From: Hondaea fermentalgiana
Lineage: Eukaryota > Sar > Bigyra > Thraustochytrida > Thraustochytriidae
Direction: 5' to 3'
DNA length: 22,513 nucleotides
Assembly (NCBI GenBank): GCA_014084085.1
Contig: NPFB01000013.1
Coordinates: forward strand, 82,172-104,684
The position numbers and the translations under genes are program-made. Under the pieces are notes generated by a model, which saw nothing but the letters and a program-made list of their open reading frames with translations, had not been told where the DNA came from and searched no databases. Within the stretch, counting starts at the first letter, position 1. Every line of letters starts with the position of its first letter. This document shows positions 2,382-21,751 of this stretch, in pieces.

Positions 2382-4604
2382 ATGCCTGCTTCTCCTCCTC
2401 ACGCAGAGGCACACAAGCGCGCAGCAAATCAAGACGCGCGTCTCATGCTCAGCAAACCAGCGAAAAGACCAAGCCCCCGCGAAATGGTGCTTGCGCGTCG
2501 ACAACGACGCGGCAGCCCACACCGGTCTTGGACCATGGCCAAGCCAAGAAGGCACAGACATCACCGGTTCTCGCGCAAGCATTTGCTGCGCATGCAAGTC
2601 CTTTTCTTTACGCTCGTCGCAATTTTTGCCCTCCTCCCCGCGGGAAGCGTCATGCTCGCCATCGAACAGACCCTTGGAAGCGAGACCTCTACCGCGCTCC
2701 GCAGACATCTTGAAACGAGCGGTAACTCGACTTCGTGCAGAGACACAACCTCTTCAAGCAGCGGCGAGTTTCCGCCCGACTTTTTCGACGAAACACAAAA
2801 GGACTCGGGCGGAATCCTTGTGCACATTTTCCTCATCTTTTACATGTTTATGGGTCTGGCCATCGTCTGCGACGAGTACTTTGAGTCTTCCCTGTCCGCT
2901 CTCTGCGAGGACCTCAAACTCAAAGAGGATGTGGCAGGAGCTACTTTCATGGCTGCCGGCGGTTCAGCCCCAGAGCTCTTTTCAAGTATCATTGGCGTTT
3001 TTGTGGCCAAGAGTGATATCGGCTTCGGCACCATTGTCGGTTCCGCGACCTTTAATGTACTCTTTGTCATTGCCGCTTGCGCCTTCGTTACCAACAACCT
3101 CGCTCTCAGTTGGTGGCCGCTTACGCGGGACTGCGTTTTCTACTGTATCTCGATCGTGGTACTCGTCACGTGCATCATTGACCAGGAAATCGCCGTCAGT
3201 GACTCCGTTGCGCTTCTCATCATGTACTGCTTGTACATTACCGTCATGTATTTTAATGAGGCACTGGAAAAGTGGGTCACAGCGCGCATGGAGGCCGCCA
3301 AAGCCCCGCGCTACGGGTGGCGCCTCCGTCTCGAGAATTTTCTCGAGCACGACTACTTCAATTACTTCATCTACATGGTCATTATCGCCAACATCGTCGT
3401 CATCTTTGTCGAGGTTGCCAATGGTGAATCAAACGCAACCCAAGCGATCAACTCCTGGTGCTCTGCTGTTTTCATTGCAGAGATGGCGCTCAAAATTGCC
3501 GCCCTCTCCTTCTTTGGCTACTGGCACAATCCAGTTAACGCATTCGACGGCACTCTCGTCGTGCTTATTCTCATCGAAATGGTCCTTTCCTCCTCGAGCT
3601 TTTCTGGTGGCCTTCGCGCCCTGCGCGCCTTTCGCTTTCTTCGCGTTGCCCGCGTTTTCCGGCTCTACATGGCTTCCTTTGTCGAAAAGATTCACGTTGC
3701 CACGCAAACAACCGCTGAGGACTGGAAAATGCTCGAGGTTGTGGAGAACATGACCGCCGAAGAAGCTGCACAGTATGCGCTTCCCTGCCCGACACGGTCG
3801 ACCACCGCGGTTGCGCCTGTGCGCCTTTCGCTGCGCGGCTCCTCGCTTTCCGAGGACCCCAAACTCGAGGGCCTCATTGCTGAAGCCGAAGCCGCGCAAC
3901 GCCAGCGTCAGGAAACAACAGTCAAGGCGACGCGGTCATCTGCGGACAGTAACAATTCGCACAATATATACGATGACGACGACGATGACGATGACGACGA
4001 TGAGCCGTGCAACCCCTTTGAGCTCCCAGATGGCGGACCCTTCGATCTCTTCCTGTGGGCGCTGGCCTTTCCCTTGAGCCTGGGTATGTTTTTGACCATT
4101 CCGGACTGTCGGCGACCGATCTTTAAGCGTTTCTACATGCTTACCTTTCTCATGTGTATCGTTTGGATCGCACTACTTTCCTACGTCATGGTGTGGATGG
4201 CAACCATCTTTGGTGAGTTTGCATGTATTCCACAGCCCATCATGGGTCTCACCTTGCTTGCCGCTGGTACGAGTGTCCCGGATCTCATGTCCAGTATCGC
4301 CGTCGCGAAGCGAGGTTTGGGAGACATGGCAGTCTCTAGTTCGGTGGGTTCGAACATCTTCGACATTCTTATTGGTCTCCCCGTGCCCTGGTTCATTTCC
4401 ACAGCTATTGTCAACCCGGGCGAGACAGTTCCCATCCGTTCAGATGGAATCACCATCATGGTCCTCACCCTATTCATCATGGTCGCAGCCGTCGTTTCTA
4501 TCATTCATTGGTGCAACTGGGTCATGACCAAAAAACTCGGCATTGCCATGATGGCACTCTACGCCGCCTTTGTGGCCGAGAGCCTCATTCTCGAAATGCT
4601 TTAG
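2382..4604 (+). CDS. K+-dependent Na+/Ca2+ exchanger with an internal voltage-sensor domain
   Basis: Predicted membrane exchanger of 740 residues that would move Ca2+ (and K+) against Na+. The stop-to-stop frame begins at GTG 2238; the first ATG is 2382, with A at -3. A basic N-terminus leads to a hydrophobic segment (71-94), an Asn-Ser-Thr site (115) and a TM helix (144-164). Alpha-1 repeat (about 185-235) contains GATFMAAGGSAPELFSS with Glu198. Two more helices follow (251-268, 274-292). Residues 322-430 form an S1-S4 voltage sensor: S1 Asn337, S2 Phe364/Glu367/Lys371, S3 Asn386/Asp389, S4 with Arg at 412, 415, 418, 421, 424 and 427. No pore follows. A charged linker with ten Asp (531-540) leads to TM helices and the alpha-2 repeat (about 619-670), with Asp634 and Asp661, the latter aligning with the Asp linked to K+ dependence in NCKX2. 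The family match is close; voltage control is inference. Confidence 0.93.
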   Translation: MPASPPHAEAHKRAANQDARLMLSKPAKRPSPREMVLARRQRRGSPHRSWTMAKPRRHRHHRFSRKHLLRMQVLFFTLVAIFALLPAGSVMLAIEQTLGSETSTALRRHLETSGNSTSCRDTTSSSSGEFPPDFFDETQKDSGGILVHIFLIFYMFMGLAIVCDEYFESSLSALCEDLKLKEDVAGATFMAAGGSAPELFSSIIGVFVAKSDIGFGTIVGSATFNVLFVIAACAFVTNNLALSWWPLTRDCVFYCISIVVLVTCIIDQEIAVSDSVALLIMYCLYITVMYFNEALEKWVTARMEAAKAPRYGWRLRLENFLEHDYFNYFIYMVIIANIVVIFVEVANGESNATQAINSWCSAVFIAEMALKIAALSFFGYWHNPVNAFDGTLVVLILIEMVLSSSSFSGGLRALRAFRFLRVARVFRLYMASFVEKIHVATQTTAEDWKMLEVVENMTAEEAAQYALPCPTRSTTAVAPVRLSLRGSSLSEDPKLEGLIAEAEAAQRQRQETTVKATRSSADSNNSHNIYDDDDDDDDDDEPCNPFELPDGGPFDLFLWALAFPLSLGMFLTIPDCRRPIFKRFYMLTFLMCIVWIALLSYVMVWMATIFGEFACIPQPIMGLTLLAAGTSVPDLMSSIAVAKRGLGDMAVSSSVGSNIFDILIGLPVPWFISTAIVNPGETVPIRSDGITIMVLTLFIMVAAVVSIIHWCNWVMTKKLGIAMMALYAAFVAESLILEML

Positions 4605-4662
4605 TTGCATTGTATCACGCCATCATTGAAAAAAAGCCATGTGATGAACACAGCTCTCCCAC

Positions 4663-4668
4663 AATAAA
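4663..4668 (+). terminator. Poly(A) signal AATAAA
   Basis: A canonical AATAAA lies 59 bases after the exchanger stop codon, a normal distance for 3'-end formation. It is followed at once by the CAA-rich array. Confidence 0.55.
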
Positions 4669-4670
4669 GA

Positions 4671-4790
4671 GAACAACAACAACAACAACAACAATAACAA
4701 CAATAACGAGAACAACAACAACAATAACAACAATAACGAGAACAATAACAACAACAACAACAATAACGATAACAACAACTACAGCAAACA
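4671..4790. repeat. CAA-rich array with 30-base tandem units
   Basis: About 120 bases of AAC/AAT triplets. Within it 4681-4710 and 4711-4740 are identical 30-base units ending AACGAG, and 4741-4770 is a third diverged copy ending AACGAT. It sits directly downstream of AATAAA. The plus strand has almost no T, so an RNA copy would be largely unstructured. Confidence 0.9.
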
Positions 4791-19500: not shown

Positions 19501-20118
19501 CCTTGCCCTGCCTTCGTTGGCCGTTCACAAGCAAGGCGGATTGCATTTCACTGCTGGCGCATTGCACGCGTAATAAATGACCCCCGTGCAACAAGGGTTT
19601 GTTTGTAAGCACGCACTGCTTGCAGCGACGCCCTCCAAGTAAGTCCCGCGCCCGAGCCCGAAGGCGCGAGCCCGAGCGGGCGAGCGAGAGGCCAAGTCCT
19701 GGCTTCTGAGTCGCGAACGAAGCGCGTACCTCGATGGCGATGCCGCGGCAGGCCTGCGTCTCTGCGCTGGCTGCTCCATTTATTCCGGGCTGCGAGCGAG
19801 CATCCTGGTCCACCGCGCAGGCTCCGGCCGCGGTGGACGCGCGAGAAGGACTCGACGTGGATGTAGCGCCGGCGGTAGCAGCGCGCTACGAGTCGAGGGA
19901 GTGCGAGCTCCCGGAAGGAGCCTGCCTGACTGTGAGGGAGGCCAGGAAAAGTACGGTATGTAGTAGCAGAGCATTAGTGGCGTACTAGAAGCGGCGGCGG
20001 CTGAGCGCGGCGAGGGCAAGGTCGAGACTCGACAGAACCGTAACGCACCCGCGGAGACTACATTACAAGCTTGAGCTTGAGCGAGAGCAGCAGGCAGGCA
20101 GGTGGCGGTGAAGCACAA

Positions 20119-20149
20119 GGCAAGCAAGCAAGCAAGCAAGCAAGCAAGC
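20119..20149. repeat. (AAGC)n tract in the dehydrogenase leader
   Basis: Seven to eight AAGC units ending about 24 bases before the ATG at 20174. The frame through it lacks an ATG, so it is probably untranslated leader. Confidence 0.85.
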
Positions 20150-20173
20150 GAAGAGGCGAGCGAGCGAGGCAGG

Positions 20174-21751
20174 ATGGGCGTCAAGACCGTGAGCACGAAG
20201 GAGCTCGCGCAGCACAGCACCAAGGAGAACGCGTGGCTGGTCATCGACGGCAATGTCTATGACGTCAGCAAGTTCGCCATGCTCCACCCGGGCGGAGAGG
20301 AGATCCTCTACGAGTACGCCGGCCAGGACGTGACCGAGACCTTTTACGGCCTCCACAGGCACGAGGTCCTCGCCAAGTACGCCCCCAAGCTCCTCGTGGG
20401 CCGCCTCGAGGGTACGGGCGAGGAGTCGGCCGACACTAAGCCTCTCGAGCGCAGCGAGCTCAGCATCCTGCCCTTTGCCGAAAACACCGGCTTCCAGGGC
20501 TTTGATTCGCCGTACTGGACCGAGTCCCACGTCGACTTCCGCCGCAATGTCCGCCAGTGGCTCCACGACAACGTTCGCGACGCCGCCGAGGAGGGCGAGT
20601 TGAGCGGCAAGGCGCCCACGCAGGAGCTCTTCCAGCTCATGGGTGATGTCGGTCTCCTGGCAGGCCGCATGGGCCCCGGCGCCGCCATGAAATACGCACC
20701 CAAGGAGCTCTTCGGTCTCCCCAAGGAGAAATTCGACTACTTTTACGAGATGATCCTCCACGAGGAGGTCGGCCGCCTCGCGTGCCCTGGCTTCGTTGAT
20801 GGCATCGGGTCCGGCATGGCCATTGGCCTCCCGCCCGTCCTTCAGTTCGGCCCGGACTGGATGAAGGATAAGGTCGCCAAGGAGGTCCTCTCGGGCGAGA
20901 AGCGCATTTGCCTCGCCATTACTGAGGCCTTTGCTGGTTCCGATGTGGCGCACGTCAAGACTCGCGCTGAGCTCTCCGCCGACGGCACGCACTACATTGT
21001 CAACGGCACCAAGAAATGGATCACGAACGGCCACGATTCGCACTACTTCACCACCCTCGTCCGCACCGGCGGCGAGGGCCATGGTGGCCTCTCGTTCATG
21101 CTCATCGAGCGCGGCGAGGGCGTCGAGACCAAGAAGATTAAGACTTCGTACTCTCCCTCTGCAGGTACGGCCTACATTACCTTTGAGAACGTCAAGGTCC
21201 CGGCCGAGAACCTCATTGGCGGCGAGAACATGGGCTTCTTGCTTTCCATGTACAACTTTGTTCACGAGCGCTGGATGATCTGCGCCTACATCAACGCCGG
21301 CTCGCGCGGCATGATTGACGAGTGCCTGCGCTGGACGCAGCAGCGCAAGGCGTTTGGCAAGCCTCTTCTTTCGCAGCCCGTCGTCCGCAAGCAGATTGGC
21401 GAGATGATTTCGCGCGTCGAGGCCGTCTCGGCTTGGACTGAGAACATCACGTACCGCATGTGCAACATGCCTTACCACGAGATGTCCTCCAAGCTTGCGG
21501 GCCAGGTCTGCCTGCTCAAGTACGAGTGCACGCGCGTGGCGCATGATGTGGCTGACATGGCCGTGCAGATCTTTGGTGGTCGCGGCATCACCCAGAGCGG
21601 TATGGGCAAGTACGTGGAGCGTTTCATGCGCACGTACAAGTTCGCCAGCATCCTGGGCGGCAGCGAGGACGTCTTGATCGATGCCGGCCTGCGTCTGTCC
21701 ATGGCCACCGCTGCCAAGGAGTTTGGCAACCTTGCCCGCGCGCGTCTGTAA
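20174..21751 (+). CDS. Cytochrome b5-acyl-CoA dehydrogenase fusion, PTS1-like end
   Basis: A 525-residue flavoenzyme fused to a heme domain. Residues 5-80 are cytochrome b5: WLVIDGNVYDVSKF, then HPGGEE with heme ligand His38, and LHRHE with the second ligand, probably His61. From about 115 an acyl-CoA dehydrogenase follows: AITEAFAGSDVA (near the family signature), VNGTKKWITNG, FENVKVPAENLIG, QQRKAFGKPL and QIFGGRGITQ. The MCAD catalytic Glu position is Gly495 here; counting back from RKAFG, Glu365 falls at the helix-G Glu used by isovaleryl-CoA and long-chain dehydrogenases, so that is the likely base. The enzyme would introduce a 2,3-double bond into an acyl-CoA, with b5 a possible electron acceptor. 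The end, ARL, is a PTS1 variant. The frame opens at GTG 20102; ATG 20174 has A at -3 and G at +4. Confidence 0.93.
   Translation: MGVKTVSTKELAQHSTKENAWLVIDGNVYDVSKFAMLHPGGEEILYEYAGQDVTETFYGLHRHEVLAKYAPKLLVGRLEGTGEESADTKPLERSELSILPFAENTGFQGFDSPYWTESHVDFRRNVRQWLHDNVRDAAEEGELSGKAPTQELFQLMGDVGLLAGRMGPGAAMKYAPKELFGLPKEKFDYFYEMILHEEVGRLACPGFVDGIGSGMAIGLPPVLQFGPDWMKDKVAKEVLSGEKRICLAITEAFAGSDVAHVKTRAELSADGTHYIVNGTKKWITNGHDSHYFTTLVRTGGEGHGGLSFMLIERGEGVETKKIKTSYSPSAGTAYITFENVKVPAENLIGGENMGFLLSMYNFVHERWMICAYINAGSRGMIDECLRWTQQRKAFGKPLLSQPVVRKQIGEMISRVEAVSAWTENITYRMCNMPYHEMSSKLAGQVCLLKYECTRVAHDVADMAVQIFGGRGITQSGMGKYVERFMRTYKFASILGGSEDVLIDAGLRLSMATAAKEFGNLARARL

Follow-up and report, generated by a model that had tools for sequence, protein, structure and literature searches.

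Results

A calcium exchanger gene with a voltage-sensor domain between its halves

The stretch of DNA analysed here (the window; 22,513 nucleotides, C25:82172-104684 in the 36.0 Mb, 238-contig genome of Hondaea fermentalgiana) carries on its + strand an open frame that runs, in the ORF listing, from a GTG at 2238 to a stop codon at 4602-4604. Translation from the ATG at 2382 is free of stops and gives a protein of 740 residues, P0001, with the following features.

2382..4604, + strand: coding sequence of the sensor-bearing NCKX-type exchanger P0001, 740 aa plus stop (frame, Pfam, NCBIfam)
2574..2633, + strand: N-terminal hydrophobic helix, residues 65-84 (helix in the AlphaFold model)
2790..3302, + strand: N-terminal exchanger half, TM1-TM5 with the first alpha repeat, residues 137-307
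2937..2987, + strand: alpha-1 motif GATFMAAGGSAPELFSS, residues 186-202 (E198 in 93/93 aligned)
3255..3344, + strand: TM5-S1 linker, helical and near-constant in length, residues 292-321 (spacing in 93 proteins; pLDDT blocks >90)
3318..3683, + strand: voltage-sensor domain S1-S4, residues 313-434
3351..3422, + strand: S1, residues 324-347 (structure model; N337 in 92/93)
3432..3506, + strand: S2, residues 351-375, with N357, F364, E367 and K371 (family alignment)
3531..3593, + strand: S3, residues 384-404, with D389 and E399 (family alignment)
3612..3680, + strand: S4, residues 411-433 (one continuous helix in the second model)
3684..4037, + strand: S4-TM6 linker, mostly disordered, residues 435-552 (spacing in 93 proteins; low pLDDT)
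3693..3725, + strand: post-S4 segment with a partly kept TQ motif, residues 438-448 (family alignment)
4038..4598, + strand: C-terminal exchanger half, TM6-TM10 with the second alpha repeat, residues 553-739 (Na_Ca_ex at 585-732; structure comparisons)
4245..4295, + strand: alpha-2 motif GLTLLAAGTSVPDLMSS, residues 622-638 (D634 in 93/93 aligned)
4362..4364, + strand: Asp661 (present in 93/93 aligned)

The earlier note had read alpha-1, an S1-S4 module and alpha-2 in a single frame, and the 740-residue stop-free frame together with the Pfam matches bears this out; at the level of sequence the fused architecture is certain. Third-position GC is 0.65 in the N-terminal exchanger half, 0.66 in the sensor and 0.65 in the C-terminal half, a similarity that fits the expectation for one gene. 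The full fused protein finds a single match in its own genome. By likeness to animal NCKX, the helix at residues 65-84 may be a signal peptide or an anchor; we take it to resemble the N-terminal helix of surface NCKX. Directly past the stop codon, the 3' flank holds a long AAC/AAT-rich repeat (window 4661-4790). Elsewhere in the window, at 20102-21751 (+), a cytochrome b5 domain and an acyl-CoA dehydrogenase lie in a single frame.

The exchanger halves

Pfam Na_Ca_ex matches P0001 in two stretches (E 1.3e-51), and the feature that defines membership is present, namely two alpha repeats, each with an acidic residue (G-x-S-x-P-E/D). Glu198 (codon 2973-2975) and Asp634 (codon 4281-4283), which we take to be the ion-site positions of NCKX2, are kept in all 93 aligned fused proteins. 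Asp661 presumably occupies the place of NCKX2 D575, the alpha-2 aspartate needed for K+ dependence. On the strength of the alpha repeats and these three residues, the assignment to the NCKX (SLC24) type made in the earlier note holds. P0001 scores 291.3 bits against the general Ca/Na antiporter profile TIGR00367, above its cut-off of 179.65 and close to proteins named NCKX3 and NCKX4 (294.5 and 297.3). Against the K+-dependent exchanger profile TIGR00927 it reaches 395.3 bits (E 5.6e-118), below the curated cut-off of 710.1, which proteins named NCKX2 and NCKX1 pass (834.9 and 933.2). That cut-off fails to define the whole of SLC24, because the proteins named NCKX3 and NCKX4 also miss it (449.6 and 431.4). 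By its NCBIfam matches the exchanger is a Ca2+/Na+ antiporter, nearest to the K+-dependent type.

The voltage-sensor domain

Between the exchanger halves, Pfam Ion_trans matches residues 324-429 (68.7 bits, cut-off 25, E 5.6e-19), a sequence match far beyond chance. The match covers profile positions 2-109 of 241, that is S1-S4 only, with the pore absent. We rejected a reading of the domain as a channel, since no S5-P-S6 pore is present and the match stops at position 109; the highest 19-residue hydropathy between S4 and TM6 is 0.54, compared to 1.85 for TM6 and 2.37 for S1.

The residues on which a voltage sensor depends are nearly invariant across the 93 aligned fused proteins. In S2, N357 and E367 are found in every protein, position 371 is always K or R, and an aromatic residue, F in 82 proteins and Y in the other 11, occupies position 364. 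D389 in S3 is likewise invariant and position 399 is always E or D, so that the charge-transfer centre, composed of the S2 aromatic and Glu and the S3 Asp, is complete in 93/93. In P0001, S4 carries an arginine at every third position (R412, R415, R418, R421, R424 and R427); all six positions are R or K in 82 of the proteins and five of the six in the remaining 11. Mean pairwise identity is 0.36 in the sensor, lower than in the exchanger halves (0.60 and 0.545) and higher than in the linker (0.19). In the alignment, the sensor drifts in sequence while its working residues stay fixed. From these residues we predict that the sensor is very probably competent. The S4 of P0023, P0042 and P0051, which form part of one clade, contains RAWRVLR, presumably the pattern known for Hv1 proton channels.

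Structure predictions give the exchanger part an NCX1-like fold and the sensor a fold similar to that of Cav/Nav channel sensors. The models were built from 48 of 93 and 87 of 102 sequences. S4 is less certain in them, with pLDDT blocks of 60-79 compared to 88-96 for S1-S3. The charge tally is mixed: K+R per residue amounts to just 0.060 in the S2-S3 loop, which is expected to lie inside, and in the post-S4 segment acids slightly outnumber bases. Among the matches listed, the nearest solved sensor sequence is that of Cav3.2 (E 6.7e-29), with its second domain as the best stretch.

Linkers on either side of the sensor

The two connections of the sensor differ markedly. The spacing from N292 to I334, which spans the TM5-S1 linker, is 38-48 aa with a median of 41 in the 93 proteins, whereas that from R427 to F589, across the S4-TM6 linker, is 84-304 aa with a median of 139. 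A link of such varied length means that no taut mechanical connection is conserved between S4 and TM6. In the models of P0001 pLDDT is below 50 across most of residues 466-538, and the linker includes an acidic run at residues 532-541 (3975-4004). Just after S4, Q442 is found in 74 of the 93 aligned proteins; TQ or SQ followed by T, W, V, S or I occurs in 53, including TQT in 37. TQT is an anchor motif for dynein light chains.

A family of fused proteins

A protein search scored 7990 candidates and gave 3167 relatives, of which the best 120 were analysed. The sensor is present in 93 of these best 120 of 3167 (P0001 counted, its own copy P0002 dropped) and absent, by sensor profile and alignment, from 27, namely P0084 and P0096-P0121, among which P0107 keeps a remnant. 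The order alpha-1, sensor, alpha-2 is found in 93/93, as read from aligned columns, a count that covers the 93 and not the nine fused proteins (P0122-P0129 and P0131) that were added later by a profile search from distant members. With these nine, the family numbers 102 fused protein clusters or more (93 + 9), so that the fusion, first seen here in one gene, recurs well beyond it. A sequence search with residues 400-620 of P0078 matched only that protein itself.

The closest organism-tagged relative among the matches listed is P0005 from the thraustochytrid Mucochytrium quahogii (59% identity). The fused P0072 is cercozoan (taxid 136419), and P0093 is near-identical outside the sensor to P0107 and P0130 of Aureococcus anophagefferens (94 and 98% over the 44% reported). 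Organism tags thus cover P0005, P0072 and, via its Aureococcus match, P0093; the other sensor-bearing entries are shown without an organism name. Several fused entries bear transcript-type names, P0005, P0072 and P0123 from MMETSP and P0013, P0016 and P0078 from EukProt, and P0123, which is outside the 93, holds both domains. Since such entries contain the whole sensor, it is very probable that transcripts of the fused form exist. In the Aureococcus gene models the sensor is skipped in frame, partly in P0107, which lacks S3-S4 and keeps a 58-residue remnant, and wholly in P0130; these skips could be mis-annotation or alternative splicing. We rejected an assembly or splicing artefact in view of the 93 aligned fused proteins, some of which have transcript-type names; the splicing-out of the sensor that the earlier note named as a refuting event has a faint echo in these two models.

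Evolutionary history of the fusion

A tree of the exchanger columns was built from 124 rows, 93 with the sensor and 31 without, with P0084 and P0107 scored as sensor-less and the own-genome matches on C14, C7 and C51 left out. Three changes of the sensor label suffice on this tree, compared to 27.9 on average when the labels are shuffled; SH-aLRT is only 85 for the branch that unites all sensor-bearing rows with P0084 and P0107. P0084 has no sensor though it is nested among sensor-bearing rows, which looks like a real loss in the sequence comparison and indicates that the exchanger can do without the sensor. In a sensor tree, from which P0045 was left out, 92 fused sensors and 10 sensors of channels encoded in the same genome fall into separate groups (SH-aLRT 99), on 131 columns, a number flagged as few. 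The simplest reading of these trees is a single sensor insertion followed by rare loss.

We rejected a prokaryotic source, as a contig scan with two peptide patterns gave three loci: L015 is a 359-aa exchanger without a sensor, the coordinates of L016 leave no room for one, and L017 is a 38-residue match at a contig end that is uninformative. A viral source was rejected as well, none of 28 pattern matches encoding a relative.

Paralogues and other sensor-like frames in the same genome

Four exchanger paralogues in the same genome were scanned for domains, and none has the sensor; three further matches lie on C14, C7 and C51. One of the four (L002:163-2469, - strand, on C200) is NCKX-like, with paired EF hands in the loop that links its exchanger halves, while the other three have no recognised domain there. 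One and the same loop would thus take either Ca2+ or voltage as its input.

Searched with Ion_trans, the genome yields at least 88 matches, with some frames containing four each. A 1497-aa frame on C173 (L018:1295-5785, - strand) is a possible sensor-phosphodiesterase fusion: it combines an S1-S4 stretch resembling Ion_trans (E 5.4e-6, positions 6-114 of 241) with a 3',5'-cyclic nucleotide phosphodiesterase (E 3.7e-76), although its S4 has few regularly spaced arginines. A short Hv1-like frame of 265 aa on C91 (L021:1031-1825, - strand) has RVWRLIR in S4 and is a candidate for a separate proton channel; its best structure match is 3wkv, 'Ion channel' (E 1.5e-6), with a weak match to an Hv1 structure (E 0.0069).

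Discussion

Our analysis identifies an NCKX-type Na+/Ca2+ exchanger gene with an S1-S4 domain inserted between the exchanger halves, and the product is likely a voltage-controlled Ca2+ exchanger, a reading to which we give a probability of roughly three in four. Voltage control of Ca2+ exchange is a prediction, and the best explanation. Since four helices are inserted, the sensor would have both its ends in the cytosol, on the same side of the membrane as this loop in NCX and NCKX. Depolarisation would move S4 outward and thereby alter the readiness of the exchanger to turn over, without the sensor itself forming an ion path. The near-fixed TM5-S1 linker and the long, variable and disordered S4-TM6 linker make it probable that the sensor docks on the TM5 side and that the end of S4, with the segment after it, would couple by contact rather than through a pull on TM6. 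We lean slightly towards depolarisation speeding Ca2+ extrusion after electrical Ca2+ entry rather than the opposite. Such speeding would offset the brake that depolarisation would otherwise put on an electrogenic 4Na+:1Ca2+,1K+ exchanger.

A variant of this explanation, not counted apart from it, places the exchanger on an intracellular or flagellar membrane, or has it shut by depolarisation so that Ca2+ rises. We regard this as a tentative second choice, as the N-terminal hydrophobic helix is like that of surface NCKX and nothing specific favours the variant. On its side, sequence fixes neither membrane nor direction, and SLC9C1 is activated by hyperpolarisation (PMC6052114).

It is unlikely that the domain has lost its voltage response and serves as a structural, targeting or dimerisation module or as a docking site. 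Several observations would suit such a role: the long and variable tether to TM6, the faster divergence of the sensor than of the exchanger (0.36 compared to 0.545-0.60 identity), the nested P0084 without a sensor, and the TQT after S4 in 37/93, a dynein light-chain anchor motif. A sensor domain also need not gate, as CNG channels carry one and are not voltage-gated (PMC6052114). However, E367, D389 and F/Y364 in 93/93, together with five or six S4 charges in 93/93, are unexpected for a passive module at such divergence.

Very improbable is that the sensor is the active part, for instance a proton or gating-pore leak path, with the exchanger merely its carrier. Hv1 needs an Asp in the core of S1 and has the pattern RxWRxxR in S4. 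The S4 pattern occurs in 3/93 (P0023, P0042 and P0051), but P0001 lacks it, the S1 core (residues 329-341) has D or E in 0/93, and the genome has the separate short Hv1-like frame L021. What speaks for a leak path beyond these three proteins is that sensor domains alone can conduct protons, as in Hv1 (PMC13095418). That the fused frame is an illusion of annotation or assembly, made of separate genes or a segment that is spliced out, can practically be dismissed: the Aureococcus models P0107 and P0130 omit, in frame, part and all of the sensor respectively, but alpha-1, sensor and alpha-2 lie in one protein in 93 aligned sequences, including MMETSP and EukProt transcript-type entries, and the frame studied here is open throughout with uniform third-position GC.

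The voltage-controlled Ca2+ exchanger proposed here resembles several known systems in part. According to a 2023 structural paper, no transporter other than SLC9C1 is known to be regulated by voltage-sensing domains (PMC10620092). Like P0001, SLC9C1 combines a secondary active exchanger with an S1-S4 sensor in one protein and has a charge-transfer centre of an aromatic, a Glu and an Asp (PMC13095418, PMC10620092). It is, however, a Na+/H+ exchanger, while the sole transporter domain in P0001 is Na_Ca_ex (Pfam, E up to 1). The S4 of SLC9C1 extends about 60 Å into cytosolic helices and its sensor is thought to lift an inhibition (PMC10620092), whereas the S4 of P0001 ends in a slack linker; SLC9C1 also has a CNBD (PMC10620092), a domain that Pfam does not find in P0001. 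In SLC9C1 the sensor follows the exchanger, in contrast to the fused family, where it lies between the repeat halves in 93/93. We therefore rejected a relationship to SLC9C1, given the other exchanger family and the other layout, in agreement with the separate design proposed in the earlier note. SLC9C1 is not among the 60 sensor-search matches or the 50 per fold comparison that are listed, which is no evidence of its absence.

With NCKX1-5 (SLC24), P0001 shares the alpha repeats, the conserved acids including the Asp661 equivalent and a large loop between the halves. The difference lies in the sensor, whose profile is unmatched in 25 of the 26 proteins P0096-P0121, the 26th being the Aureococcus remnant P0107, and has no match in any protein named as an animal NCKX among the matches listed. 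The main text of a review on NCKX regulation does not contain the word 'voltage' (PMC9820825). NCX1 (SLC8A1) has the same fold, and its corresponding loop also houses a regulatory module; this consists of Ca2+-binding domains (PMC9820825) and thus senses Ca2+, while the module of P0001 is a voltage sensor. Domain II of Cav3 and other Cav/Nav sensors have the same fold as the P0001 sensor, and Cav3 is the closest solved sequence among the matches listed, but P0001 has no S5-P-S6 pore after S4. Ci-VSP and Hv1 likewise employ an S1-S4 sensor outside a channel pore; P0001 differs from the former in having no phosphatase domain (Pfam) and from the latter in having neither the S1 acid nor RxWRxxR.

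The earlier note knew of no described example in SLC24, and we found no earlier description of the fusion in the parts of the open-licence full-text literature covered; most subscription papers are outside this scope, and priority is unproved. In a paper on an Arctic pelagophyte, PF00520 and PF01699 are named next to each other under K+-transport genes (PMC9133084).

Taken as a whole, the evidence makes it probable that these proteins are a protist family of voltage-gated Ca2+ exchangers that arose through one ancient insertion of a Cav-like sensor, kept working ever since. If this is true, single cells own a Ca2+ extruder with a direct read-out of the membrane potential. SLC9C1 would then be joined by a second kind of sensor-gated transporter, with an independent origin, another fold and another coupling, and a second case, spread over many sequence entries, would make the voltage sensor on a transporter a repeatable design, not an oddity of sperm. 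The family would also offer an architecturally different system for the study of sensor-to-transporter coupling, and it would give a protist with several four-domain channel-like frames a voltage-read Ca2+ extruder.
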